Source of the DNA: Clostridiales bacterium GWF2_38_85
GTDB lineage: Bacteria > Bacillota > Clostridia > Oscillospirales > CAG-382
Length of the DNA: 61,203 bases
NCBI GenBank assembly: GCA_001797275.1
Contig: MGOY01000008.1
Span: 78,083-139,285 of the forward strand
Reading direction: 5' to 3'
The notes under the pieces are model-generated. The model was not told the origin of the DNA. It made no database searches and saw only the letters and a list, made by a program, of their open reading frames with translations. Position numbers and translations under genes: made by a program. Below are positions 1,334 to 29,614 of this stretch, piece by piece. How positions within the stretch are numbered: the first letter of the stretch is position 1; every line of letters starts with the position of its first letter.

Positions 1334-1459
1334 CATTGCTGTATCTTGCTTATATTATATTATACAAATAATATTTTGTCAATGATAAATATTAAAAATT
1401 TAAATTTTCATCATTATAAACAATTCTAAAGAAAAATTATCTATAATATTCATCATGTT

Positions 1460-4316: not shown

Positions 4317-4342
4317 AGTTTGAAAAATATATTTTTCAAACT
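4317..4342. repeat. 26-bp perfect palindrome between spoVG and the GT28 gene
   Basis: The bases from AGTTTGAAAAATA to its exact complement form a perfect 13+13 inverted repeat with no loop excess. It is AT-rich and lies just upstream of the glycosyltransferase. It lacks a clear T-run on either side, so it may be an operator or weak terminator rather than a standard intrinsic terminator. A smaller hairpin (TTCGCC/GGCGAA, 4281-4301) follows in the direction of transcription. Confidence 0.5.
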
Positions 4343-8066: not shown

Positions 8067-8951
8067 TTAATCCAGTCCTATAAGTAATTTAGCAAGTTCA
8101 GAATCTTTACTTAGAATAACTGTTTTATCATTACCGTTAAGCGATGCTTTAAGTACCTCGAGTGAGCGGATAAACTGATAGAAATCCTGCTTTTCCTGAG
8201 TATCGAAAGTTTGGGCAAGAATGCTCATATATTCCTGTTCGCCTTCAGCTATTGTTAACTTCGCTGTCAATTCTGCATCAGAAATCATTACATTATATGC
8301 TCTGTCTGCCTCTGTTTTTATCTTTGTTGCATCCTTTTCAGCTTCAGCAATTATTGTCGCTGCAAGTTTATTTCTTTCGGATATCATTCTTTCATAAACA
8401 GAATTTTCATTTTCTGTTGGTAAATCAAACCTTTTTATTTTAACATCCTTTATTGTTATACCATAAACTTGAGATGCCTTTGCAACATTATCTGTTATCT
8501 GCTTATATATTTCATTTCTCAAAGACGGATCATCTTCGTTTATAATATCATTTTGATTTAATGTACCCATTAGGTTCTTTACATTATTATAAGTAATGCT
8601 ATCTAATCTCGATTTTGCGTTTTCGATACTTCCAATTGTGCTATAAAAAGTAAGTGGATCTGCAATTTCCCATGCGATATAAAAATCAACAGTCATAGCC
8701 ATTTTGTCTTTTGTAAATACACTTGATGGCTCTATGTCATATATTAAAACTTTTTTTGAATAATACTTAACATTATCAATAAAAGGTGTCTTAAACTGAA
8801 GTCCTGCTTCAGAAACAACCTTCTCTATTTTAGAAAATCTTAAAACACAGGCATATTGATCTTCCCGTACAATATATATTGAACTAAAAAAAACAATGAT
8901 TGAAAACAGCAATATAACTCCAATTATAATAAGAAATATAAATTTTTTCAT
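8067..8951 (-). CDS. hflC: SPFH-domain membrane protein HflC
   Basis: 294 residues: one N-terminal membrane helix (FIFLIIIGVILLFSIIVFF), then a prohibitin/SPFH domain starting IVREDQYACVLRF, and a coiled-coil region rich in Ala/Glu (AATIIAEAEKDATKIKTEADRAY). HflC with HflK forms a large membrane cage; in E. coli it modulates FtsH protease. Its start overlaps the hflK stop by one base, as expected for translational coupling. Confidence 0.9.
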   Translation of the reverse strand: MKKFIFLIIIGVILLFSIIVFFSSIYIVREDQYACVLRFSKIEKVVSEAGLQFKTPFIDNVKYYSKKVLIYDIEPSSVFTKDKMAMTVDFYIAWEIADPLTFYSTIGSIENAKSRLDSITYNNVKNLMGTLNQNDIINEDDPSLRNEIYKQITDNVAKASQVYGITIKDVKIKRFDLPTENENSVYERMISERNKLAATIIAEAEKDATKIKTEADRAYNVMISDAELTAKLTIAEGEQEYMSILAQTFDTQEKQDFYQFIRSLEVLKASLNGNDKTVILSKDSELAKLLIGLD

Positions 8952-9937
8952 TAATTATTACTCCCATCAACAAAAGTGTCTATCGGTAACAATTTCTGCA
9001 ATGTCCCGTCACCTGTATCAATATATAATGTTACTCCATCTAAAGCATCTTCAAGTGCTTCATAATACATTCGAGTTTTTGTTATATCACGATTTAGTAT
9101 ATATTGTCCATACATTGCATTAAACATCGCAACTTGTTTGTTTGCTTCATTAATTCGGCTGACTTTTTCATATTCAGCTTGTTTTATTAATTTATCTGTT
9201 TCAGCGTCAATCAACTTCTGCTTTTCCGCTTCATATTGGCTTGCCTGGTTCAAAAGTGTTTGACGTTTTTGCCCTGCATTTATTACAGCAGCAAACGCTT
9301 CTTTAACATCATCTGTTGGTGGTTCGCTATCTTGAATTCGGATAGCGTTAAGTTTTAACCCAATGTCATATGTTGAAAGTTCAGCTATCGATAATTCATA
9401 TACCGATGTCTCAAGCTGTGCCTTGCCATCAGTAATTACATTATCCACCTTCAAAGAACCAACAACACTTCTGATTTGACTTTGTATAAGCAGCTTAAGT
9501 AATTCTTCAGGATCTTCGGAAGCATATAAATACTTTTCCGGATCGCTTATTTGGTATTCTACATAAAAATCGATATTGACTATATTATAATCACCGGTAA
9601 TCATTTTACTTTCAATCTCAATTGCTGTAGTATTACCACTTTTATCAGTTCTATAACCGATGTCAATTGATCTTATAACGTTCACATCAACTAAAGTTGC
9701 ATGTTGAACACCAGGGATCTTCAAATGCAGTCCTGCACCTTCAACCGATGTTACCTTACCGAATGTTGTAACAACTGCTTTCTGTTGATCATTGACTGTA
9801 TACCACATTGAGCTGACAATTAAAATCACTAAGAAAATAATTATTCCCAGTATAATATATCTGGTAATTTTCTTTGAATCTTTCTTATACTTCTTTGCGT
9901 CATTTCTTATTTTTTCCCAGTTATTCGTATTGTTCAA
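8951..9937 (-). CDS. hflK: SPFH-domain membrane protein HflK
   Basis: 328 residues: a short charged N-terminus, one membrane helix (YIILGIIIFLVILIVSSMW), then VNDQQKAVVTTFGKVTSVEGAGLHLKIPGVQ, a canonical HflK SPFH start, and a coiled-coil segment (NQASQYEAEKQKLIDAETDKL). The start codon is TTG at 9937 with GGAGTGAGG just upstream. It is first of the hflK-hflC-GNAT group. Confidence 0.9.
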   Translation of the reverse strand: MNNTNNWEKIRNDAKKYKKDSKKITRYIILGIIIFLVILIVSSMWYTVNDQQKAVVTTFGKVTSVEGAGLHLKIPGVQHATLVDVNVIRSIDIGYRTDKSGNTTAIEIESKMITGDYNIVNIDFYVEYQISDPEKYLYASEDPEELLKLLIQSQIRSVVGSLKVDNVITDGKAQLETSVYELSIAELSTYDIGLKLNAIRIQDSEPPTDDVKEAFAAVINAGQKRQTLLNQASQYEAEKQKLIDAETDKLIKQAEYEKVSRINEANKQVAMFNAMYGQYILNRDITKTRMYYEALEDALDGVTLYIDTGDGTLQKLLPIDTFVDGSNN

Positions 9938-10099
9938 TTACCTCACTCCTTTTCACATTAAAATTTATGCTCAATTAAGCATATTTATATTATCAGTTAT
10001 TATAACATGCTATATTGCCCGACGCAAGATATTTTTACAATTTATATAAAATCCGATGTTTTAAATTCCTTCTATAATGCTTATTTCACAAAAACACTA

Positions 10100-10128
10100 T
10101 TGACATTTGAGGGTCTGTGGTGTAGAAT
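10100..10128 (+). promoter_or_regulatory. Promoter of the solute-binding lipoprotein gene
   Basis: TTGACA at 10100-10105, 17-bp spacer, TAGAAT at 10123-10128; the ATG is 36 nt downstream of the -10 element, with AGGAGG at 10148-10153. Confidence 0.85.
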
Positions 10129-10163
10129 AACACTGTTATAAACTATTAGGAGGATGTTCCCAA

Positions 10164-12008
10164 ATGAAGAAACGCTTAATCGCTGTTTTGTTGGTTCTGA
10201 TGATGCTAAGCACCACGCTCTTATCGTCGTGTGATAAAACAACACCACCAGAAGATATAGTAATACCTGTTTACACTCTTTACGGTATTACAGGTGATAC
10301 GACAACACCTGAAGCTATTTTACAGGTAGAGCTTGCATTAAACAGAATTTTAATAACTAATTTTGATGTAGCAGTAAAATTAATGCTCTTCACAGAAGAT
10401 GAATATGACGATGCTCTTGCACAAGCATTCCAGGATGTTGAGGATTACAAAGTGCAAAAAGCTGCTGAAATTTCTGCTTCCAAAGCCGCTGCAGCTTCTA
10501 ATAAAAAAGCCGGTTTAACCATATCCGATGGATCTGAAATTGAAAGTGGTTACACTGCTGATAATATTATTGACACCTTAGAATCCGGTCAAGAAATTGT
10601 TCTTCCCGAACCTAGAGTTGATATATTTCTCGTTTGCGGTAAAGATGATTATTATCAATTTGCCGAGGATAAAATGTTTACGGATAAAGGCATTGCAGAC
10701 AAATTAAACAGTGAAGCAAAAGCTTTACTCAAATATATACATCCATATTTTATCGCTGGAAATGCTTCAGAAATAAGTGCTGCAAGAGTTGATAAATATA
10801 TTTACGGTGTTCCCAACAACGGTCCTATCGGTGAATATGAATACTTTGTATTTGACAAAGAACTTCTCAATAAATATAAATTTGATGCTCCTTCCCTGAA
10901 AACATTATACGATGTTGAGTTATTTCTTGAAGTTATAAAAGAAAACGAACCTGATATTATACCGATCACCGGTACAACAACTCCTAATAATGTATCCTTC
11001 CTATTCCAGGATGGTTTCCCTGTTGCAGTTGACGAAAATGGATACACCTTTGGAACCTATCTTTCTGAAGATATGAAATCATACTTTGAAATGATAAATC
11101 GCTTCCGCCAGAAAGGTTATCTACCTAACGGAGAATTAAGTAAAGACGATCGTTTTGCAGTAACTATTATAAAAGGCAATCTTGGTGATATCGAAACTCT
11201 TGCAGAAGAAACCGGCAGAGAATATGAGTATGTAATTTATAAAAACCCTGTCGGAACAGCAGAAAATATGCTTGAAAACGTATTCTGCTTCGGTAAAGAC
11301 TGTGTTTCTGATGATCTCAGCGGTGCTCTAAAGATTGTCCGATTGATCAATACTGATATCTCTGCAAGAAACATATTCCAATATGGTATTCTGAATCAAA
11401 ATTATGAATTTGATGATAACGGTCAGGTCGTCCTTTTAGATAGTGAAAAATACGATTACAAAATGAACAAAGCGCAGACAGGCAACCAATTCCTTTGCTA
11501 TACTTTAGCTGGCGAGGATTCTAAAATCTGGGATAATGCAAAAACACAGAACCTTGATGCAACTATATCACCGTTTATCTCCCTTGTTTACAAGCGCCTT
11601 GAAGTTGAAGTTAAAGCTCCTGAAACATCGGATGAATCAATTGATGTTGTATCTACTGATGCTGAGTCCACAGACACAAGTGAAACCTCGGGTTTTGAAG
11701 CTCCCACTGAAGAATCCGAAGCTGAAGTAATTTTGGAACCGGATTACAAAACATTATATACAAATATAACAAACAAATATTATGATGATCTGATAAACGG
11801 AACCGGTAATTTTGAAGAAATCTGGGCTAATATACTAAAAGAACTTGAAGAAGCCGGTGATGGATACGAAATAGCTTTAAGAACCAGCTTCGAACCACAG
11901 ATTAAGTCTTCAGTCTCCTCTTATCCCACTGAGGATAGCCCTTATGATTACATGATAGATCCTGATTCTGAAACCTCAGAAACTTCTTCAGTAGAAGCAT
12001 CACAATAA
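10164..12008 (+). CDS. Solute-binding-type lipoprotein
   Basis: 614 residues. The N-terminus MKKRLIAVLLVLMMLS ends in the lipobox LLSSC (Cys 23), so it is a secreted lipoprotein. The body resembles extracellular carbohydrate-binding proteins of ABC importers: segments such as DKYIYGVPNNGPIGEYEYFVFDKELL, LYDVELFLEVIKENEPDIIPI and RFRQKGYLPNGEL. Two features are unusual: an Ala/Lys-rich insertion near residues 95-120 and Ser/Glu/Thr-rich linkers near 480-520 and at the very C-terminus. No permease or ATPase gene is adjacent and the gene has its own promoter and terminator. It may serve a distant transporter or act as a sensor partner; the ligand is unknown. Confidence 0.7.
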   Translation: MKKRLIAVLLVLMMLSTTLLSSCDKTTPPEDIVIPVYTLYGITGDTTTPEAILQVELALNRILITNFDVAVKLMLFTEDEYDDALAQAFQDVEDYKVQKAAEISASKAAAASNKKAGLTISDGSEIESGYTADNIIDTLESGQEIVLPEPRVDIFLVCGKDDYYQFAEDKMFTDKGIADKLNSEAKALLKYIHPYFIAGNASEISAARVDKYIYGVPNNGPIGEYEYFVFDKELLNKYKFDAPSLKTLYDVELFLEVIKENEPDIIPITGTTTPNNVSFLFQDGFPVAVDENGYTFGTYLSEDMKSYFEMINRFRQKGYLPNGELSKDDRFAVTIIKGNLGDIETLAEETGREYEYVIYKNPVGTAENMLENVFCFGKDCVSDDLSGALKIVRLINTDISARNIFQYGILNQNYEFDDNGQVVLLDSEKYDYKMNKAQTGNQFLCYTLAGEDSKIWDNAKTQNLDATISPFISLVYKRLEVEVKAPETSDESIDVVSTDAESTDTSETSGFEAPTEESEAEVILEPDYKTLYTNITNKYYDDLINGTGNFEEIWANILKELEEAGDGYEIALRTSFEPQIKSSVSSYPTEDSPYDYMIDPDSETSETSSVEASQ

Positions 12009-12020
12009 AAATAGCTGACG

Positions 12021-12054
12021 AACCGAGGTGCCTGATGGTACCCCGGTTTATTTT
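12021..12054 (+). terminator. Intrinsic terminator after the lipoprotein gene
   Basis: Stem AACCGaGGTgCC / GGtACCcCGGTT with a TGAT loop, followed by TATTTTAT. It overlaps the 3' end of the convergent glycosylase gene. Confidence 0.75.
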
Positions 12055-12527
12055 ATATAGTCAAGTATAATCTTATAATGTCTGATTAATATGTCTAAAT
12101 TCATTGCAGCATTTGCCGGGCTTGGGGATGGTAAAGCTATGCTATCCTTTCCTGTGAGCTTATTATACAAATTTGTTGCGGTAATCCCCGTTGTAAATAC
12201 TGTTTTAATTTTTGCAACATCAAAAATTATATCAAAATCATTAACAATAGGATTTTTTATACTTGCATCAGCTGCACCTTTTATCTCGCAGCTGTATATA
12301 ACATCCCACATTGCAATGTAATTCAGCAATAGAATCTCTCTTTTTTCATCTATATTTTCCGGAACTTTCTTTTCAAGCACAGCTGCAAGTACCTTCCAGA
12401 ACCTATTTTGCGGGTGTCCGTAAAAGAAACCTTGATCACGTGATTTTGGCGATGGGAATGAACCGAGTATCAGTATTTTTGATTCTTGATTATACACCGG
12501 CTGAATATTATGAATTATTGTATTCAT
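12048..12527 (-). CDS. DNA-deoxyinosine (hypoxanthine) glycosylase, UDG superfamily family 6
   Basis: 159 residues. ILILGSFPSPKSRDQGFFYGHPQNRFWKVLA is the diagnostic N-terminal signature, and LPSPSPANAAMN is the second active-site motif. Members excise deaminated bases, chiefly hypoxanthine, from DNA. Single gene, convergent with the upstream lipoprotein gene. Confidence 0.88.
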   Translation of the reverse strand: MNTIIHNIQPVYNQESKILILGSFPSPKSRDQGFFYGHPQNRFWKVLAAVLEKKVPENIDEKREILLLNYIAMWDVIYSCEIKGAADASIKNPIVNDFDIIFDVAKIKTVFTTGITATNLYNKLTGKDSIALPSPSPANAAMNLDILIRHYKIILDYIK

Positions 12528-12564
12528 TACAACTCCAAATCTTAATAGATTTTTATAAAAACAA

Positions 12565-12593
12565 TTGACAAACTCGCTTTCTTGTTATATTAT
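12565..12593 (+). promoter_or_regulatory. Promoter of tRNA-Gly
   Basis: TTGACA at 12565-12570, 17-bp spacer, TATTAT at 12588-12593 (overlapping a TATAAT shifted by 3), about 75 nt before the tRNA. Confidence 0.7.
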
Positions 12594-12670
12594 AATATAA
12601 GAATTTCAACATGTAAAGACAATAGTTAAAAAGCCTCTGCTCTTCTGTTGATTTATTGTATATAAAATGT

Positions 12671-12744
12671 GCAGGCATAGTTTAGTGGTAAAACGACCGC
12701 TTCCCAAGCTGTAGATGCGGGTTCGATTCCCGTTGCCTGCTCCA
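12671..12744 (+). tRNA. tRNA-Gly (anticodon CCC)
   Basis: 74 nt with encoded CCA. Acceptor arms GCAGGCA/TGCCTGC, D-arm GTTTAGTGGTAAAAC, anticodon loop TTCCCAA (CCC), T-arm CGGGTTCGATTCCCG. The anticodon stem has one C-T mismatch. It reads GGG codons. Its 3' end is partly duplicated at 14005-14031. Confidence 0.93.
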
Positions 12745-13671: not shown

Positions 13672-13700
13672 TAAAAAATAAGCTCACCCGAAGGTGAACT
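13672..13700 (-). terminator. Intrinsic terminator of the small peptide gene
   Basis: On the minus strand AGTTCACC, TTCG tetraloop, GGTGAGCT, then TATTTTTTAT. The stable UUCG loop and T-run make this a good terminator. It begins 23 nt after the peptide stop codon. Confidence 0.85.
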
Positions 13701-13722
13701 CTGCCATTACTATTATGTATGC

Positions 13723-13842
13723 TTAATTATGCGTCGAATAATAGCCATCTTCGATTATCGAAGGCAAAATACCGCTCTCAGTATTCATTAAAAGTAATTC
13801 CTCCAATTTAGGAGCTTCCCATGTTTGTTTTAATTCTTGCAT
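13723..13842 (-). CDS. Small peptide, probable orphan lasso-peptide (paeninodin-type) precursor
   Basis: A 39-codon gene with ATG at 13842, AAAGGA 9 nt upstream and TAA at 13723. The N-terminal half reads as a RiPP leader: TWEAPKLEELLLMNTE. It has an aromatic-x-x-P-x-L element (W8, P11, L13) and a Thr at 21, eight residues after the Leu. This is the layout of Firmicute lasso leaders, where YxxPxL is bound by the RRE protein and Thr is at position -2. Cleavage after E22 would leave SGILPSIIEDGYYSTHN, with Ser1 and Glu9, suitable for a nine-residue macrolactam ring and an eight-residue tail. No cyclase, protease or RRE gene is in the window, so maturation would need enzymes elsewhere. Motif and gene structure are seen; the class assignment is inference. 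It is too short for standard gene callers to favour. Confidence 0.65.
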   Translation of the reverse strand: MQELKQTWEAPKLEELLLMNTESGILPSIIEDGYYSTHN

Positions 13843-13878
13843 TTTATTTTTCCTTTCGATTATTAAAATTTATAATAT

Positions 13879-13907
13879 ATTATAAATTTTCTAAATTATG
13901 ATGTCAA
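13879..13907 (-). promoter_or_regulatory. Consensus promoter of the small peptide gene
   Basis: On the minus strand TTGACA (13902-13907), 17-bp spacer, TATAAT (13879-13884). Both hexamers match the sigma-A consensus exactly. The start codon is 36 nt downstream of the -10. With the terminator this defines a monocistronic transcript of about 200 nt. Confidence 0.88.
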
Positions 13908-14189: not shown

Positions 14190-15596
14190 ATGTATAAATT
14201 TAAGAATAATCAGATAAAATCCAGCGACTTCGGACAACCTGTCGGTATGAAGATGAATCCAAACAATCGATGGGTGAAAAAAGCTGAAATTATCCCATGG
14301 GAAGAAATTGAAAAACAATATGCAAAGCTTTTCACTAATCAAAAAGGAAATGTGCCAAAACCTTTACGTCTTGCACTTGGTGCTTGCATTATTCAGGCAT
14401 AATATGGATTTTCAGATGAAGAAACCACAGCAATGATACAGGAGCCTCCATATCTGCAATTCTTCTGTGGGTTTTCTGAATACAAGTATGAACCACCTTT
14501 TGATCCATCTCTGATGGTGTATTTCCGTAAGAGACTGACACCCGAAATACTTGGAGAACTCAATGAACTCATCATTCAAAAGTTGCAGAAAAAATCGGAG
14601 AAAGATGATGACAATGATAAGCATGAGCCACCTCACAACAAAGGAACACTGATTGTGGACGCCACCTGTGCACCATCTCAAATAAAGTATCTCCGCAGGA
14701 TACCGAGCTACTCAACAAAGCAAGAGAGAATACAGAACAGATTATCACTGAACTGCACAACCCAGCCGATGGGAAAAACCACGCATTCATCCCGAACGCG
14801 CACATAAGGATTACTTACGAATTGCCCGTAAAAAGAAGAAATCGGGAACAGAGATTCGTAAATCAGTAGGTAAACAACTGCGATATCTTCGGCGTAATCT
14901 GGGCATTATTGATACCATGCTGGCAAACGGAAAAGAGTTAAGCCCCAAGCAGACAAAATGCCTGGAAACAATTAAAGCTGCGTATGGACAACAGAAGTAT
15001 ATGTTTGACAGCCATACCCATACGGTGGAAAGTCGCATTGTCAGTCTATCACAGCCATATATCCGTCCAATTGTTCGGGGAAAGGCAAAGTCTCCAGTAG
15101 AATTCGGTGCCAAGCTGGATATAAGTGTTGTGTATGGATTTGTACGTTTGGAAAAGCTGTCCTTTGATGCATATAACGAGGTTACCATTCTCAAAGAAGT
15201 AATCGAACGATACAAAACGAGAACCGGCAGCTATCCGGAACGGGTGCTTGCGAATAAAATATATCGGAATCGCGATAATCTTGTATCGGTCAAAGAAAAG
15301 GGAATTCGACTCTCCGGTCCGGCACTTGGCAGACCAAAGAAGGATGTAGAAACGGATAGAAAGTTGGAATACAGGACAATTGTGATCGTATTAAGGTTGA
15401 ACGAGAATTCAGTCTGGCTAAACGCAAATGCGGATCAGGGCAGATTTATACCCGTTTGCAAGAAACCTCACAGAGTGTGATCGCTTTATCCATAGTTGTA
15501 CTGAACCTAAGGAAGGTTCTCCATGCTTTTTTGTGGCACATTTTTGATTTGTTTCTTGAATCTGTGCCATATTTGAAAATTGGGTTTGTTCAGTAG
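14190..15596 (+). pseudogene. IS5-type DDE transposase, multiply inactivated
   Basis: The reading starts MYKFKNNQIKSSDFGQP at 14190 and follows an IS5-type (DUF772 N-terminal, DDE_Tnp_1) transposase. EPPFDPSLMVYFRKRL and TLIVDATCAPSQIKY are in the first half; DYLRIARKKK, VEFGAKLDISVVYGFVRLEKLSFDAYNE and NKIYRNRDNLVSVKEKGIRLSGPALGRPKKD follow; SLAKRKCGSGQIYTRL and a C-terminal ALSIVVLNLRKVLHAF close it, with TAG at 15594. It is broken by an in-frame TAA at 14400-14402 and by at least three frameshifts (near 14690, 14770 and 15375). I could not define terminal inverted repeats. It is an immobile relic in the tRNA-Gly/tRNA-Pro interval. Confidence 0.88.
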
Positions 15597-15697: not shown

Positions 15698-15774
15698 CGG
15701 GGTGTGGCTCAGTTTGGTAGAGCGCTTGGTTCGGGACCAAGAGGCCGTGGGTTCAACTCCCGCCACTCCGACCA
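15698..15774 (+). tRNA. tRNA-Pro (anticodon CGG)
   Basis: 77 nt with encoded CCA. Acceptor CGGGGTG/CACTCCG, D-arm GGCTCAGTTTGGTAGAGC, anticodon stem CTTGG/CCAAG around TTCGGGA (CGG), T-arm GTGGGTTCAACTCCCGC. A degraded integrase lies just beyond its 3' end, in the position usual for elements inserted at tRNA genes. Confidence 0.95.
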
Positions 15775-16017: not shown

Positions 16018-17013
16018 TCAAGCTGTTACCGCTTTTCTTGCTTCCTTTTCTGCAGCAATCTCGGCTTTCATCTGCACGATCAGCTCAGCAAACTTTTTCT
16101 CACATTCCTCTTAGTTGTGAGCGTATACATTCTTTGAGATGCGCTTGCTGTCAGCGTTGCGTGGAGTAAACGACCTTCGTACAGGTGATCATTGATCATC
16201 GAGATGCAACCGGTGCCAGGCTTGCGTATCTTGCCCGTGTGTGGCTTGAAATCGCCTAAACGGAGTTTTTCTTTTGTCGAGGGGTGTTATCCTGCTCCGG
16301 TGAGGATGCCTCGTTCTTGCCGATGTGACGGTCAATCTTTGTCGCCGCCTGCTGTTGCATGGTGTCGGTGATGTGGCTGTAAATATCAAGCGTAGTTGCT
16401 ACCGACACATGACCGATGATGGACGAGAGTGTCTTGACATCCATGCCGTGTTCCAGTGCCATAGTTGCGAAGGTGTGGCAAAGGTCATGAAAACGCACTT
16501 TCTTGCAGCCTGCTCGCTCAAGAATCAGCTGCAACCGTTTTCTGACGGTTCCGGGATAACGCGGAGAATCCTCCTTGACAGGCGACGGAAACATCCATCG
16601 AGGGCCCACCGTCGTTCTGTATTCCTTAAGCACCTCGACAAGTGACAGTGGCAGTACCACGTACGCACCGAAGATTTGGTTTTGGGTGTGGATATAAGTA
16701 GCTCACCTTTTACTGTATACACCTGCCTGCTTATGTGCAATTCTCCGGTTTTGAAGTCCAGGTCACCCCAATGTAAAGCCAATATCTCGCCGCGGCGCAT
16801 CCCAGTTCCAAGCTCCAGCAGGAACAATTCGTAATAGCCTTCCTCTTTGGCTTGTATCAGAAACCGCTGCATTTCATCAGAATTAAGTACCTCCATTTCC
16901 TTTGCCTTTTTTGGTGGCAGCTTACAGCCAAGCGAAGGGTTGACACGGATCAGTCCTTCTGTAGCCGCCTTTTCAAGCACCGTACGACAGGAATCATGAC
17001 ATGCGCGCACCAT
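16018..17013 (-). pseudogene. Tyrosine-family integrase remnant, with its downstream partner segment
   Basis: The minus strand reads a tyrosine recombinase lacking its N-terminal arm-binding part: RMVRACHDSCRTVLEKAA, LLELGTGMRRGEILALHW (first catalytic Arg), a frameshift near 16640, then FHDLCHTFATMALEHGMD, SSIIGHVSVATTLDIYSH (His and Tyr). The second catalytic arginine of the HxxR motif has become Cys (HDLC). After its stop at 16256 a further degraded segment reads RLGDFKPHTGKIRKPGTGC, MINDHLYEGR, a frameshift, then KNVYAHN, TAA, EECEKKFAELIVQMKAEI. That is a sequence often found with integrative-element integrases. The remnant reads toward tRNA-Pro, the expected insertion site of the lost element. 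Confidence 0.82.
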
Positions 17014-17895: not shown

Positions 17896-18888
17896 ATGCC
17901 AAAAGCAAATTATCAAAAAATCAAGCTACTAAAGTTGATGGAGCTTTTCCGTCATGAAACAGATGAGGAGCATCCACTGAAAACAAGCGAAGTTTGCGTG
18001 TGCTTAAATAAGCAGAATATATCCTGTGATCGAAGAACTCTTGGTAAGGATATCGCCTTTCTTAACGAACAAGGCTTTGAAGTAATGTCAGTCATGAGAG
18101 GACATGAAAAAGCATATTATATTGAAGACCGCAGCTTCAGTGTGCCTGAGCTGAAGATACTTATTGATGCAGTACAGGCAGCAAGCTTTATCACAAAGAA
18201 GAAAACTGTAGAGCTGATTGATAAAATAGCAAATTTAGGCGGTAGTTATCGGGCTGAAATACTCAAGGGTAACATGGTGTGCTTCAATACACGCAAACAC
18301 AGCAATGAGTCAATATACTATAATGTCGGCTTTCTTGAGGTAGCTATTCAGGAAAAGAAGACAGCGTCATTTTATTACTACGATCTCAACGAGCAGGGTG
18401 AAAAGGTTTATCGGAAGAAAAAGGAGCGGTACATTGTTGAACCGATGGCGCTTGTGTTCAATGAGGACAATTATTATCTGATGTGCTACAGCTCAAAATA
18501 TAATGGTGTTTGTAATTATCGTGTTGACCGGATGGAATCGGTCAGCATAGAGGATATGTCAATAAGCAGCGACGCTATAATGCAAGAAGCAGGCATTGCA
18601 AATTACACCGAACAGGTCTTTAAAATGTACGGTGGGCATCGTGTGGATGTAACGCTGCAATTCGACTATTCGCTCATTGGTGTTGTCTATGACAAGTTCG
18701 GTGAAAACACAAAGATGGTAAAGATCAACGAAAATACCTGTGTTGCAACAGTCGGGGTGCAAATAAGCCCGACCTTCTGGGGTTGGTTGTTCCAGTTTGC
18801 CGGCAAGATGAAAATTCTGTCGCCCGAATCAATTGTTATGCAGTATAAAAGTCAGGTTAATATAATGATAAATGAGGTGTCGGAATGA
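17896..18888 (+). CDS. WYL-domain transcriptional regulator leading the cas operon
   Basis: 330 residues. An N-terminal winged-HTH (IKLLKLMELFRHETDEEHPLKTSEVC, CDRRTLGKDIAFLNEQGF) is followed by a WYL domain (KKTASFYYYDLNEQGEKV, RYIVEPMALVFNEDNYYLMCYS, NYRVDRMESVSI) and a C-terminal WCX-like region. WYL domains are ligand/nucleic-acid-sensing modules common beside CRISPR-Cas genes. The ATG at 17896 has GGAGGTG 5 nt upstream. Its stop overlaps the cas3 start by 4 bp (ATGA), so it is cotranscribed and coupled. It probably controls this operon; direction of control is not evident. Confidence 0.88.
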   Translation: MPKANYQKIKLLKLMELFRHETDEEHPLKTSEVCVCLNKQNISCDRRTLGKDIAFLNEQGFEVMSVMRGHEKAYYIEDRSFSVPELKILIDAVQAASFITKKKTVELIDKIANLGGSYRAEILKGNMVCFNTRKHSNESIYYNVGFLEVAIQEKKTASFYYYDLNEQGEKVYRKKKERYIVEPMALVFNEDNYYLMCYSSKYNGVCNYRVDRMESVSIEDMSISSDAIMQEAGIANYTEQVFKMYGGHRVDVTLQFDYSLIGVVYDKFGENTKMVKINENTCVATVGVQISPTFWGWLFQFAGKMKILSPESIVMQYKSQVNIMINEVSE

Positions 18889-21260
18889 ATAAATCAGAAA
18901 GTAAAGAAACCTATCTTGCGCATATATCAGAAGATGGCAGAAAACAATCAATAGAGGAGCATTGTATTGAAACAGAAGCTGTATGTAGACAATTCGGTTC
19001 TAAAATAGGTTTAGAGAAAACTTCTGCACTTTGTGGTTTGTTACATGATATGGGTAAAGCAACTGAAATATTTCAAGAATACTTATTGAAGCTCAACGAT
19101 TTAAAAAGAGGGGATGTAAATCACTCTTCAACTGGTGGAAAATTTGTCGAAACACTTAAAACAGAAGGAGAACCTTTTTCTGAAATCACTTCCCTGTTAA
19201 TATGTGAAGCAATAATATCACATCATAACAACGGGCTTCTTGACATATATACACCTGATGGTATAAATGTACTGAATCGACGCATCAATCCTAAAAAAGA
19301 AATATTTTACGATGAAGCACTGCAAAATTTTCCGATTAAATTTGATAACATATCAAAAGAATTTAATTGTGCGGTGACAGAAATAAAAGATATTTACGAA
19401 AGACTTATACTGTCTTTTGGTAATGATAAAGCAGAATTAACTTTTTTATTAGGTTTAATTGTTAGGTATTTATATAGTTGTTTGATTGATGCTGACAGAT
19501 ATGGTACATATTTATTTGAGATAAATTCGGACGATAATGACAAGAATATTGAAGGTTTTTGGGACATTCTATCAAAATCGCTTGAAAGTTATATCATAAA
19601 ACTTGATCATTCAAGTGCTATCAATAAAGAACGCCAAAAAATATCTGATTCATGCTTGTTGTTTTCATCAAACAATAATGGAATTTTTCAACTTCATGTA
19701 CCTACCGGTGGCGGTAAAACAATCAGTAGTATGAGATATGCAATAAACTGTGCAAAAAAATTCAATAAGGACAGGATATTTTATATTGCACCTTATAAAA
19801 CAATTCTTGAGCAAAATGCAGATAAAATTCGTGAAATTTTTGGTGATGACTGTAATGATATTCTTGAACATCATAGTGACTTTATCAGCAGCGATGAAAA
19901 ATACAAATTACTAACCGAGCGTTGGCAATCAAAGATAATTTTAACCACGATGGTACAGTTTCTTGATACTTTGTTTGCCGGGAAATCATCTTCTGCAAGA
20001 AGATTTCATTCATTAGCGAATTCTGTGATTATAATTGATGAGGTTCAATCTTTACCGTTGAAATGTATTTATATGTTCAATACAACAATGAATTTTCTTT
20101 CTGAATATTGCAATTGTTCGATTGTTTTATGTACTGCAACACAACCACAGCTGCACAAGACCAAAAATCATAAAATAAAGCTTTCACAGCCTTCCTGTAT
20201 GATTGAAGATTTAACTAATGTGTTTAAATCATTCAAGAGAACAATGATACACGATATAACTAACAGTAGCTTTTCATCAGAAACATTGTCTGACTTTGTC
20301 ATAGAAAAGCATATAGAAAATAAAAGAACACTTGTTATAATGAACACAAAAGCCACAGCATTAAACTTATATCAAAAGCTAAAAGAAAAAGATCCGGATA
20401 CACTCATTTGCTACCTAAGTACAGGATTATGTCCGGCACATAGAAAAAAGATAATTGACATAATTTCAAAAGCAGATGATGTTATCTGTATAAGCACTCA
20501 AATGATCGAGGCGGGTGTAGATATTTCTTTCTCATGTGTTATTAGATCATTAGCCGGTCTTGATAGTATCGCACAAGCAGCCGGGAGATGTAATAGAAAC
20601 AAAGAGAAAGATACTGGGGATGTATATGTAGTAAGAAGCTCTGAAGAAAATCTTGAAAGACTACCAGATATAAAAGAGGGACAAAAAGCGACAATCTATG
20701 TTCTTGAAGCTTTTAAATTAAATCCTTTACGGTTTAATAATGATTTATTGTCAGTTCAAGCGATGGAAAGCTTCTACTATTATTATTATACTGCAAGAGA
20801 ACAGAAAAATGAGATGTCTTATTTGCTATTCAAAAATAGAACCGGATTTTATAAAGACACTAATCTCTATGATTTACTCTCTTTTAATAGCATAGGCAGA
20901 AATCAAGCAAAACAAAATAACGAAAAGCTTTATTTTATAAATCAAGCATTCGAATCTGCTGGAAGAAATTTTAATTCTATTGACAACGAAGGTATTGGTG
21001 TAATAGTCCCATATGAAAACTGTCTGTCTTTATTACATGAAGCAGAAAAAAATAAAAATATAAAAGACAAGGTAATGCTTATGCGAAAACTCCAAAGCTT
21101 TAGTATAAATTTGTTTCCATATGAAAAGAAGCTATTAGATGATGAAAATGCATTAACTCTAATTGAAGAGCTTGGTGTTTTTATAGTTGATAAAAACTAT
21201 TATGATAATGAATATGGAATAAAATTTAAGAAAACTATTATGGAAGTTTTAATTCAATAG
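18885..21260 (+). CDS. cas3: CRISPR-associated nuclease/helicase Cas3 (type I-C)
   Basis: 791 residues. The N-terminal HD nuclease domain has CGLLHDMGKATEIFQEY (His54-Asp55) and a later SHHNNG. The SF2 helicase core has VPTGGGKT (about residue 274), IIDEVQSLPLK (DExH variant, about 385), VLCTATQP and AQAAGRCNRN (motif VI, about 567). Cas3 is recruited by target-bound Cascade and unwinds and degrades the non-target strand. All key motifs are intact, so interference is likely functional. Confidence 0.96.
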   Translation: MNKSESKETYLAHISEDGRKQSIEEHCIETEAVCRQFGSKIGLEKTSALCGLLHDMGKATEIFQEYLLKLNDLKRGDVNHSSTGGKFVETLKTEGEPFSEITSLLICEAIISHHNNGLLDIYTPDGINVLNRRINPKKEIFYDEALQNFPIKFDNISKEFNCAVTEIKDIYERLILSFGNDKAELTFLLGLIVRYLYSCLIDADRYGTYLFEINSDDNDKNIEGFWDILSKSLESYIIKLDHSSAINKERQKISDSCLLFSSNNNGIFQLHVPTGGGKTISSMRYAINCAKKFNKDRIFYIAPYKTILEQNADKIREIFGDDCNDILEHHSDFISSDEKYKLLTERWQSKIILTTMVQFLDTLFAGKSSSARRFHSLANSVIIIDEVQSLPLKCIYMFNTTMNFLSEYCNCSIVLCTATQPQLHKTKNHKIKLSQPSCMIEDLTNVFKSFKRTMIHDITNSSFSSETLSDFVIEKHIENKRTLVIMNTKATALNLYQKLKEKDPDTLICYLSTGLCPAHRKKIIDIISKADDVICISTQMIEAGVDISFSCVIRSLAGLDSIAQAAGRCNRNKEKDTGDVYVVRSSEENLERLPDIKEGQKATIYVLEAFKLNPLRFNNDLLSVQAMESFYYYYYTAREQKNEMSYLLFKNRTGFYKDTNLYDLLSFNSIGRNQAKQNNEKLYFINQAFESAGRNFNSIDNEGIGVIVPYENCLSLLHEAEKNKNIKDKVMLMRKLQSFSINLFPYEKKLLDDENALTLIEELGVFIVDKNYYDNEYGIKFKKTIMEVLIQ

Positions 21261-21275
21261 AAAGGTGGGTGTCCG

Positions 21276-21995
21276 ATGCAAAAAGAAAACAAGCTTAATT
21301 TAAAGGTATTCGGAAGGCTGGCTCTTTTCAGCGATCCGGTTACCAGAGTAGGAGGTGAGAAGTGTTCATATCAAATACCTACTTATCAGGCATTGAAGGG
21401 AATATTTGAGAGCTGCTATTGGAAGCCGAGTTTTATATGGGTTATCGACAGAGTAAGAGTGATGAAACAAATTAAGACGCAATCAAAAGGAATACGGCCT
21501 ATCAAGTATGGTGGCGGTAATGATTTGTCAATCTATACTTATTTATCCGATGTCGAATATCAAGTTGAAGCCCATATTGAATGGAATGAAAATAGACCGG
21601 ATCTCGAAAATGATTGGAATGAAAACAAACATTATTTTATTGCTAAAAGAATGATTGAAAAAGGTGGCAGACGCGATATTTTCTTGGGAACGAGAGAATG
21701 CCAGGCTTATGTTGAATATTGTTCATTTGGTGAAGGCGATGGTTTCTATGATAATCTATCTGAAATGTCGTTTGGATTAATGTATCATGGAATGACATAT
21801 CCAGATGAAAATCAGGAAAATGAATTAAGGGTTCGTTTTTGGCTTCCAAAAATGAAGAACGGAATTATTGAATTCTGTAAACCTACTGAATGTAATTTCA
21901 GCAGGATAATTAAGAAGAATGCTCCAAAGGGTTTCTCATATGGGACAAACTTCGAAGATTGTAATGTTTTGGCAAGAGAGGAGGGATATGAATGA
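21276..21995 (+). CDS. cas5c: Cas5 of type I-C (Cas5c/d), pre-crRNA processing
   Basis: 239 residues, beginning LNLKVFGRLALFSDPVTRVGGEKCSYQIPTYQALKGIFESCYWKP, the standard Cas5d start. In type I-C this protein replaces Cas6: it cleaves the repeat RNA and stays bound at the crRNA 5' handle. GTRECQAYVEYC and YHGMTYPDE are further family blocks. It has AAAGGTGGGTG upstream and overlaps cas8c by 4 bp. Confidence 0.94.
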   Translation: MQKENKLNLKVFGRLALFSDPVTRVGGEKCSYQIPTYQALKGIFESCYWKPSFIWVIDRVRVMKQIKTQSKGIRPIKYGGGNDLSIYTYLSDVEYQVEAHIEWNENRPDLENDWNENKHYFIAKRMIEKGGRRDIFLGTRECQAYVEYCSFGEGDGFYDNLSEMSFGLMYHGMTYPDENQENELRVRFWLPKMKNGIIEFCKPTECNFSRIIKKNAPKGFSYGTNFEDCNVLAREEGYE

Positions 21996-23935
21996 GTTGG
22001 GTACAAAAACTGTCCCAGACTTATGACAACTGTCAATCAGAGGTTGGTGTGTTTTATGGAAACAAAACTCCTTTGTTGCCAATATATCATTCTACTCAAC
22101 AAGCACATATTGAAGTTGTGATTGATACCGATAGTAATTACAGACGTGCATCGGTAATCAATGATAAAAATGAAGCAACCACTATAATACCTTGTACAGA
22201 GAGTTCCGCATGGGTAGCAAATGGACGAGATCCACATCTCCTCTTTGATAAATTGAAATATATAGCTGGAGATTATGAGCAATATACTATTGAAAAGAGC
22301 GAATTTGATAAATATATTAAGAATCTTGAGGATTGGAGTAATTCAGAATTTGGTCATCCGATAGTTAAGATAATATTAAAGTATTTACAGAGAAAAAGTT
22401 TGATAGCTAATTTAATCCATGATGGTTTATTGTTTGTGGACGAAAACAATTTGCTTATAAATGAATGGAAAAGCAAAGATATTGAAACTCCATTGATATT
22501 TAAAGTTACGCCAAAGCAAACAGATGCATTTGTTAGATTTTCAATAATATCATCTGAAGGTGCAGATAGTTTAAATATTCCATGGAGAGACCACAGTATA
22601 TGGGAAAGCCATATAAAATATCAGGATAGCATAAAAGGTAATAATGATTATTGTTATATTACTGGTGATTATGTTCCGGTTTCTCGATTAAGTCCTAAAA
22701 AAATCAGGAATACCGGTGATGGTGCTAAGCTAATTTCGGGAAATGATTCATCTAATTTCACGTTTAGAGGAAGATTTTCAACACCAAATGAAGCTTTTAA
22801 TATTGGAAGAGAGACAACCGAAAAAGCACATGATGCTTTAAGATGGCTAATAGCAAAACAAGGCACACACAATGATTCTCAGGCTATTGTTGCATGGGGG
22901 ACGAATAACGAAAAGCTGCCTTCTATATGTGCAGATTCATTAACTGTTGCAAGCTCACTTGAACCTGATCAAGACATAGCTTTCACAAATGAATTCTTTG
23001 CAGAACAGTTCAATAGAGCTATAAATGGTTATAAATCCAATCTTAAGGATTATAACCAAGCAATCATTATGGGTGTCGATTCAGCAACAACGGGTCGATT
23101 ATCAATCTTTTATTATCGTGAAATGTTTGCATTAGATTTAATTTCACGGATTGAAAAATGGCATAAGAAGTGTACATGGAAATTAGAATATCGAAAAGTG
23201 AAAAACGGAGTTGATGATAAAGGCAAAGATAAATATGATAGAGTCACTTTCATAGGAGCTCCTTCACCAAAAGATATTGCCGAAGCAGCATTTGGTATAA
23301 ATGCAAAAGATAGCTTGAAAAAAAGCATTATCGAAAGGCTTTTACCTTGCATTGTTGACGGTGTTCATATACCTGTTGACATAATGAAGAACGCAGCACG
23401 AAGAGCAAGCAATCCATTAAGTATGGATGATTGGGAATATAACAAAACGCTGAGTATTGCATGCGCTTTAGTGAGAAAATACTATAACGATAAAATTAAC
23501 AAGGAGGAATGGAAATTGGCACTTGACTTTGAAAACAATGACCGAAATTATCTTTTCGGAAGGATTTTGGCATATATGCGTGATATTGAAGAGTCAGCAT
23601 TATATCAAGCTAATGAATCCAGATACACCAATGCTGAAAAGCTCCAAAATGCGTTTAGTCAATATCCGGCTAAGTATTGCAATATTTTATACAAACAACT
23701 TCGACCTTATTTGAACAGGTTAGGTAGGAAAGCAGATTTTCGCGAAAGTGAAATGATGTCGTTGATATCAAAATTAGAAAATAATGGTTTCAATAATACC
23801 TCACTCAATGAAACATTCTTATTGGGTTATTCATCTCAAATGAATTATTTCAGAGAGCAAAGAATGAATAATAAAAAAGAGAGTATAGTTAACAAAACAA
23901 ATATAAATGATGAAGGAGATAATGATAATGAGTAG
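21992..23935 (+). CDS. cas8c: Cas8c (Csd1), large subunit of type I-C Cascade
   Basis: 647 residues. Blocks match Csd1: MSWVQKLSQTYDNC, YCYITGDYVPVSRLSPKKIRNTGDGAKLISGNDSSNFTFRGRF, TEKAHDALRWLIAKQG and RRASNPLSMDDWEYNKTLSIACALVRKY. This subunit recognises the PAM and starts R-loop formation. An internal start within Csd1 is known to give the Cas11 small subunit; a GGAGG at about 23503 precedes in-frame codons but I cannot fix the site. Length and order are normal for type I-C. Confidence 0.94.
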   Translation: MSWVQKLSQTYDNCQSEVGVFYGNKTPLLPIYHSTQQAHIEVVIDTDSNYRRASVINDKNEATTIIPCTESSAWVANGRDPHLLFDKLKYIAGDYEQYTIEKSEFDKYIKNLEDWSNSEFGHPIVKIILKYLQRKSLIANLIHDGLLFVDENNLLINEWKSKDIETPLIFKVTPKQTDAFVRFSIISSEGADSLNIPWRDHSIWESHIKYQDSIKGNNDYCYITGDYVPVSRLSPKKIRNTGDGAKLISGNDSSNFTFRGRFSTPNEAFNIGRETTEKAHDALRWLIAKQGTHNDSQAIVAWGTNNEKLPSICADSLTVASSLEPDQDIAFTNEFFAEQFNRAINGYKSNLKDYNQAIIMGVDSATTGRLSIFYYREMFALDLISRIEKWHKKCTWKLEYRKVKNGVDDKGKDKYDRVTFIGAPSPKDIAEAAFGINAKDSLKKSIIERLLPCIVDGVHIPVDIMKNAARRASNPLSMDDWEYNKTLSIACALVRKYYNDKINKEEWKLALDFENNDRNYLFGRILAYMRDIEESALYQANESRYTNAEKLQNAFSQYPAKYCNILYKQLRPYLNRLGRKADFRESEMMSLISKLENNGFNNTSLNETFLLGYSSQMNYFREQRMNNKKESIVNKTNINDEGDNDNE

Positions 23936-24788
23936 TTTACAAAACAAAATTGATTTCGCTGTAATTTTTTCCGTGAAGAATGCCAACCCAAACGGTAATC
24001 CGTTAAACGGTAATCGTCCAAGAGAAGATTATGATGGATATGGTGAGATGTCGGATGTCTGTATTAAAAGGAAAATCCGTAATAGATTTATTGACCTAAG
24101 CAAAGAAGACGAATCTTTAAAGGTTTTCGTGCAATCTGATGATAGAAATATTGATGGATTTAAAAGTTTACGCGACAGAGCAGATGCATGTGAAGCATTG
24201 AAAAAAGCTGAAAAGAACAAAGATAACACAGCTTTTGCGAAAGCTGCATGTGAGCAATGGATGGATGTCAGAAGTTTTGGACAAGTATTCGCATTTAAAG
24301 GTAGTGAAGTATCAGTCGGTGTTAGAGGGCCTGTTTCAATTCATCCGGCTTTTAGCGTATCACCTATTGAAATACAAAGTATACAAATTACAAAGAGTGT
24401 TAACAGTGTTACGGGAGATAAAAAATCCTCTGATACTATGGGAACAAAACATCGAGTTCCTTTCGGGCTTTATGTTTTTTATGGCAGCATTAACTGTCAA
24501 CTTGCGGAATTGACAGGATTCAATGATGAAGATGCTGATAAAATCCTTTGGGCACTGAGATCATTGTTTGAGAATGATACTTCATCAGCTCGTCCTGACG
24601 GTTCTATGGAGGTTTGCAAAGTCTGCTGGTGGAAGCATAATAACAAAAATGGTCAATACTCCTCAGCAAAGGTTCACCGTTCATTGAAGATTGAACCAAA
24701 AGCAGAAAATCCACACAGTATTGATGACTATGAAATTGAATTGGACAAGCTTGAAGAACTAGAACCTCAGGTATACGATGAACTCTGA
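23928..24788 (+). CDS. cas7: Cas7 (Csd2), Cascade backbone subunit
   Basis: 286 residues. KIDFAVIFSVKNANPNGNP and EDYDGYGEMSDVCIKRKIRNR are the Csd2 signature; later VDVRSFGQVF-like DVRSFGQVFAFKG and MGTKHRVPFGLYVFYG. Several copies coat the crRNA spacer. The ATG at 23928 has GAAGGAG 9 nt upstream and overlaps the cas8c end by 8 bp; upstream in-frame starts lack that spacing. Confidence 0.95.
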   Translation: MSSLQNKIDFAVIFSVKNANPNGNPLNGNRPREDYDGYGEMSDVCIKRKIRNRFIDLSKEDESLKVFVQSDDRNIDGFKSLRDRADACEALKKAEKNKDNTAFAKAACEQWMDVRSFGQVFAFKGSEVSVGVRGPVSIHPAFSVSPIEIQSIQITKSVNSVTGDKKSSDTMGTKHRVPFGLYVFYGSINCQLAELTGFNDEDADKILWALRSLFENDTSSARPDGSMEVCKVCWWKHNNKNGQYSSAKVHRSLKIEPKAENPHSIDDYEIELDKLEELEPQVYDEL

Positions 24789-29585: not shown

Positions 29586-29614
29586 TTGACAAAATTTAAA
29601 TTATAACATATAAT
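29586..29614 (+). promoter_or_regulatory. Promoter of the trp operon
   Basis: TTGACA (29586-29591), 17-bp spacer, TATAAT (29609-29614): exact consensus, just before the T-box leader. Confidence 0.9.

Follow-up and report, generated by a model that had tools for sequence, protein, structure and literature searches.

A solitary lasso-precursor-like gene, probably stranded without its enzymes, in a Clostridiales genome

A 39-residue gene, here called orphan LasA, lies in the 61,203-nucleotide stretch of the Clostridiales bacterium GWF2_38_85 genome analysed here (the window), and is best read as a genuine WxxP (paeninodin-like) precursor of the Bacillota that was acquired horizontally and is now stranded without its enzymes. 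We put the probability of this reading at roughly 0.6; membership of the peptide in this precursor type is a stronger statement than what we say of the gene's fate. To judge from its letters, the locus has a predicted promoter, a Shine-Dalgarno-like site, a leader with the RRE-binding motif, Gly and Asp at putative ring positions 1 and 9, and a terminator. Since no enzymes to mature it were found in the genome, orphan LasA is probably a detached part of an already known type of system and not something new.

The transcription unit and its genomic setting

Read on the minus strand from 13907 to 13680, the promoter, Shine-Dalgarno-like site, 39-codon frame and terminator make up a complete small transcription unit (Table 1), and the frame translates as MQELKQTWEAPKLEELLLMNTESGILPSIIEDGYYSTHN. 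The original prediction of a 39-residue gene between an exact promoter and a UUCG-loop terminator was recovered in each of its parts (the open reading frame, the twelve promoter positions and the terminator stem). Its spacings are correct, with W8, P11 and L13 in the leader, T21 eight residues past L13, nine residues from S23 to E31, and a 17-residue core when counted from Ser23; it overlooked the palindrome and the ring pair Gly24-Asp32.

Table 1. Features of the orphan LasA locus and its surroundings, in window positions.
Feature	Position	Strand	Remarks
39-aa lasso-precursor-like gene (orphan LasA)	13723-13842	-	ORF with ATG start
Sigma-70 promoter TTGACA-17-TATAAT	13879-13907	-	12/12 consensus
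Shine-Dalgarno-like AAAGGA	13851-13856	-	8 nt upstream of ATG, read from sequence
Intrinsic terminator	13680-13701	-	9-bp stem, UUCG loop, then T tract
Perfect 26-bp palindrome	13865-13890	none	covers -10 box and expected start site
tRNA-Gly(ccc)	12671-12744	+	end of collinearity with contig C26 of genus mate G001
Transposase fragments, two frames (DUF772, DDE_Tnp_1_2)	14433-15477	+	
tRNA-Pro(cgg)	15698-15774	+	
Tyrosine integrase, two overlapping frames (broken)	16259-17013	-	

The window contains three copies of the exact TTGACA-17-TATAAT pattern where 0.04 would be expected, a count reached in 0 of 100 shuffles; the other two instances are at 1354-1382 (minus strand) and 29586-29614 (plus strand). 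The terminator folds at -13.3 kcal/mol as a 36-nt fragment (z -4.5, equalled by 0 of 200 shuffles), and a 63-nt fragment gives a z of -2.8, with 1 of 200 shuffles equal. Simulation produced no palindrome as long as 26 bp, either in 30 windows or in 2,000 local stretches, and the one at the promoter may be an operator. A second perfect 26-bp palindrome is present at 4317-4342.

Gapped collinearity with the genus mate extends over 8092-12744 and stops at the tRNA-Gly gene, about 1 kb short of orphan LasA. Beyond the tRNA lie, in order, a 184-aa frame without a Pfam match, orphan LasA, the transposase fragments, tRNA-Pro, the integrase and a WYL regulator. The break in synteny together with the transposase and integrase fragments is consistent with acquisition in a variable segment. 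Downstream of the WYL regulator, at 18885-24788, are CRISPR-Cas-like frames (Cas3-, Cas5-, Cas8- and Cas7-like, by eye).

Resemblance to lasso-peptide precursors

For comparison we used 26 of the 35 predicted ruminal precursors in Table 3 of PMC7533575, a source on LasA peptides of ruminal Butyrivibrio and Lachnospira; six identical or near-identical rows were left out, as were three Ruminococcus rows whose leaders are of a different kind and unfit for alignment. Like the paeninodin-like precursors described in PMC7533575 and PMC13381572, orphan LasA is short and has a WxxPxL leader, a distance of 13 from the aromatic residue to the Thr (25 of the 26 published rows), a Gly three residues past the Thr (22 of 26) and an Asp at T+11, which is position 9 from that Gly (24 of 26). 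The RRE-binding motif [Y/W]xxPx[L/V/I] is present as W8-E-A-P11-K-L13, with the Trp typical of the paeninodin type in Bacillota, and a conserved Thr near the leader end (T21) is followed by an acid at ring position 7-9, in the pair Gly24-Asp32 or Ser23-Glu31. Unlike those precursors, orphan LasA has no B1, B2 or C adjoining it or found in the genome. Three things count against membership: the score on NF033524, the NCBIfam paeninodin model, is only 13.2 bits against a cut-off of 27, aligned relatives are at most 38% identical, and the C-terminal Ser common to all five aligned relatives is replaced by Asn.

A profile built from the 26 rows places orphan LasA first among 7,260 frames (272 kb) at 18.0 bits, with the next natural frame at 10.9; loci holding copies of its own place (L001, L002, L014) were kept out of the targets. 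Of 20,000 shuffles none matched this score. The best two came fairly near, at 16.1 and 14.2 bits, so that composition contributes to the score, and the margin over the shuffles is genuine and not huge. We also searched 257 Gb of genomes with a DNA pattern of the spacing WxxPxLE..L....T..G.......DG, which was composed with the peptide in view, so that its own match is by construction. Twelve stretches in 11 genomes fit the pattern against roughly two expected by chance (a rough estimate); 11 are short precursors and one, a chance match, lies inside a long archaeal frame. Eight of the 11 genomes carry PF13471, the lasso B2 family, above cut-off; the archaeon has none, and the two remaining genomes (L074, L075) have a cyclase-like frame on the precursor's contig (by eye). 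Profile, motif scan and architecture thus all back the earlier reading of the peptide as lasso-like.

A search for homologous short peptides, proposed with the original prediction, did find relatives that hold the WxxPxL, Thr and acid positions, although none is close. Searches with tblastn against phages and plasmids gave no matches at E up to 10, and in viral contigs, with a 48-aa frame, 38 stretches fit a pattern and none was confirmed. In one viral contig (IMGVR_UViG_3300017963_004280, L106:720-950) a small WxxPxM...T..G...DG frame with phage-like neighbours (by eye) fits the precursor pattern. Among 59 related genomes (60 with its own), five had weak matches (E 0.29-0.75) in frames of 464-2009 aa, which we take as chance. 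Across 345 genomes of the order NF033524 matched 53 at E up to 1 and none above cut-off; among the matches read, two short YxxP peptides (L028, L049) were rejected because they lack the Thr/Gly/Asp spacing, and represent YxxPxLE peptides of another kind in the same order. Alignment A1, whose first row is orphan LasA and whose own-genome match is hence by construction, gave weak matches (E 0.0145-0.094) in 16 other genomes of this sample; nine of the 16 were read and yielded no short precursor, and the other seven (L055, L057, L058, L061, L062, L064, L066) lie in frames of 358-1169 aa. On this reading of nine of the 16, the order sample holds no second convincing lasso-precursor-like frame.

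Across the class, A1 matched seven other genomes among 391, and precursor-like peptides were accepted in four (G527, G571, G580, G714). We dropped G470, a doubtful 36-residue frame, and G438 and G525, where the matches fall inside long frames; in G580 the peptide has neither the Pro nor the Gly, and it was retained because a cyclase-like frame adjoins it (by eye). That of G571 (L129), WxxPxI...TESG...DG, has no NF033524 match and lies on a 5.2-kb contig (C88) that also encodes an RRE and a radical SAM enzyme, both identified by Pfam, along with Wzz/Wzc-, HprK- and SpI-like frames (by eye).

The nearest architecture is that of G714, a genome of another family of the class, which has three tandem precursors of 37-38 aa reading WNTPxLExLSVDKTASG followed by an acidic pair and a Tyr-containing tail (TASG...ED...Y, against TESG...ED...Y in orphan LasA); identity to orphan LasA is 38%, and the one tested on NF033524 just reaches 27.0 bits. 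Within about 13 kb of them are an Asn-synthase-type cyclase, an RRE, a sulfotransferase, an NTP transferase and a B2 protein, all above Pfam cut-offs, with the RRE and B2 also above the NCBIfam lasso cut-offs; the same contig carries an HprK-like kinase of weak score. This lasso cluster (L128:1-13837, contig C12) combines the sulfotransferase with CysD/CysN-like sulfate-activation frames (by eye), and its product is possibly a sulfated lasso peptide.

These relatives bear on the predicted cleavage site, which would leave a leader of residues 1-23 (or 1-22) and a core starting at Gly24 (or Ser23). The usual rule places Thr at -2, according to PMC10368454, and applied to orphan LasA it gives Ser23-Glu31. 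In the precursors of PMC7533575 Thr stands at -3, matching a Gly24-Asp32 pairing, and an acid occupies position 9 in all three G714 precursors if Gly is residue 1 and in two of the three if Ser is. The G714 acids and the published rows therefore favour Gly24-Asp32 over Ser23-Glu31; the Ser1-Glu9 ring originally proposed is permitted by the Thr(-2) rule, but the relatives speak for Gly1-Asp9 with Thr at -3.

The frame could also be incidental, in which case the transcript would act as a small RNA or encode some unrelated small protein and the lasso pattern would be due to chance. No second copy of orphan LasA was found, it has no close homologue in the phages, plasmids, viral contigs or 59 relatives, and the order contains the YxxPxLE peptides of a different kind; nonetheless the profile rank and the failure of every shuffle to match it, a motif that found little but lasso precursors even though it was composed after the peptide, and the TxSG...ED...Y agreement with precursors of a lasso cluster in G714 all argue otherwise, and we give this reading the lowest probability of those considered.

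Lasso enzymes in the genome and the C2 cluster

The genome (2.83 Mb, 47 contigs, 96% complete) has no match at E up to 0.001 to PF13471, the lasso B2 leader peptidase. PF00733 is found in two proteins, on contigs C46 and C32. As AsnB (cut-off 267) these reach 456 and 479 bits, and on the lasso-cyclase model (cut-off 525) 174 and 219; both thus exceed the AsnB cut-off and no protein of the genome scores best as lasso cyclase. This exclusion rests on relative scores, because the G714 cyclase also falls below the NF033535 cut-off, with 333 bits as lasso cyclase (cut-off 525) and 181 as AsnB. The sole PqqD-type recognition domain is on contig C2, and its 31.9 bits on the lasso_PqqD_Bac model fall short of the cut-off of 80; a discrete RRE (B1) is absent beside orphan LasA. 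We searched for enzyme relics by tblastn with 12 proteins from precursor loci, for which no hit in the window had an E below 0.13; over the window, C8:40-80 kb and all of C2, only the C2 RRE, kinase and NTP transferase gave E below 0.1, the remaining genome being covered by the PF13471, PF00733 and PqqD family searches. The earlier statement that the window holds no cyclase, protease or RRE gene is borne out, and the whole-genome search extends the orphan status to the assembly, of whose genome about 4% may be missing.

That gap is where the enzymes could lie, with the precursor matured normally from a distant cluster. The draft state of the assembly leaves room for this, and the class has lasso clusters elsewhere; in the order sample, 7 of the 345 genomes carry PF13471. 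The contig, however, extends about 92 kb to one side of orphan LasA and 47 kb to the other, PF13471 is absent from all genomes of its family in the order sample and from the genus mate (E up to 1e-5), and 7 of the 11 precursor stretches found by the pattern share a contig, judged by its length, with their genome's PF13471 match, while two further ones have a cyclase-like frame on theirs (by eye); we consider this explanation unlikely.

The C2 RRE lies apart from orphan LasA in a cluster with a presumed precursor of its own (L009:9008-9169). This compact cluster (L009:9008-15843) encodes an HprK-like kinase, a SpI-like peptidase, an RRE, an NTP transferase, a radical SAM enzyme, a carrier protein and FkbH, and has relatives at L119 and L133-L140. 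It is similar to the set for linear polyphosphorylated peptides (LPP), given in PMC13381572 as SpI, RRE, HprK, NTP transferase and an MsbA-like transporter, with radical SAM, carrier and FkbH added; no MsbA-like transporter was seen within L009:5843-15846. Of 340 genomes of the order, 10 have HprK-like relatives, its own included, and the neighbourhoods of the other nine contain a short W[KR]xP...Arg peptide in five (G305, G008, G209, G073, G179) and none in four. Five relatives among those read have the SpI-like protein fused to the RRE.

Orphan LasA resembles the LPP precursors in that a discrete RRE reads their leader at a [Y/W]xxP motif (PMC13381572) and in that its genome holds an LPP-like enzyme set, on another contig. 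In the LPP leader of the same source, YxxPxVLxHQxIxFETxxS, Tyr and the cleavage Thr are 15 residues apart, whereas orphan LasA has Trp and a spacing of 13 (by eye), and no such cluster adjoins it. The C2-type precursors are likewise short, with a WxxP leader and a PqqD-type RRE in their cluster, but lack the T..G.......D pattern and end in Arg.

The C2 cluster might capture the peptide in trans, with the peptide serving as an additional substrate or competing with the cognate precursor. It contains the only PqqD-type RRE detected, its presumed precursor and those of relatives share a WxxPx[IV] leader, and in G571 the peptide adjoins an RRE and radical SAM enzyme alongside the HprK- and SpI-like frames, although on so short a contig a neighbouring lasso cluster may have been lost. 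Against capture, the six C2-type precursors (its own and five others) end in Arg, mostly with [ED]L...I, and orphan LasA has neither; moreover, the C2 RRE has Asp where the paeninodin RRE has Gln79 (by eye; PMC13381572). The latter objection is weakened by RREs of relatives with Trp precursors that also carry Asp: all seven C2-type RREs obtained have Asp four residues before the conserved Phe, the same as LppB, and Trp is present in the precursor of its own genome, G008, G073 and G179, all four of the seven for which one was seen. Because these Asp-bearing RREs occur with Trp precursors, the Trp/Tyr rule cannot settle C2 binding of the orphan LasA leader. We regard capture as quite improbable, and see only a slim chance that a stand-alone precursor, controlled by a promoter and palindromic operator of its own, serves this non-lasso RRE pathway (HprK, SpI-like, radical SAM) in trans, as an extra substrate or as a controlling leader decoy.

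Fate of the gene and wider meaning

We favour the reading of orphan LasA as a stranded gene. It would have arrived in the variable segment adjoining tRNA-Gly, and would now persist as a self-contained transcription unit without its own B2, C or cognate RRE (B1). Its peptide is presumably translated, yet would remain a linear precursor in the host cell because B2 and C are lacking. If suitable enzymes were supplied, cleavage ahead of Gly24 (or Ser23) would remove the leader, and Gly24-Asp32 (or Ser23-Glu31) would be joined into a nine-residue ring with a short tail. Of the fates originally offered (maturation in trans, decoy or inactive relic), a stranded gene is the best supported, and maturation in trans is possible but found no support; it is a little surprising that a relic should still have a perfect promoter, a ribosome site and a terminator. 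Among the papers listed by our literature search no report of a solitary lasso precursor appeared, which is weak evidence, the subscription papers lying largely outside that search.

The more novel lead may lie in the HprK/SpI/RRE/radical-SAM/FkbH cluster, which has W[KR]xP precursors of its own. Mining for lasso precursors normally starts from the enzymes that adjoin them and so overlooks solitary ones; a specific short leader pattern finds precursors without enzymes, so that stranded ones can be counted. If these are common, they would form a reservoir of cores usable by incoming enzymes, and would be relevant to a question raised in PMC13381572, namely how RREs within a single cell keep their pathways separate.
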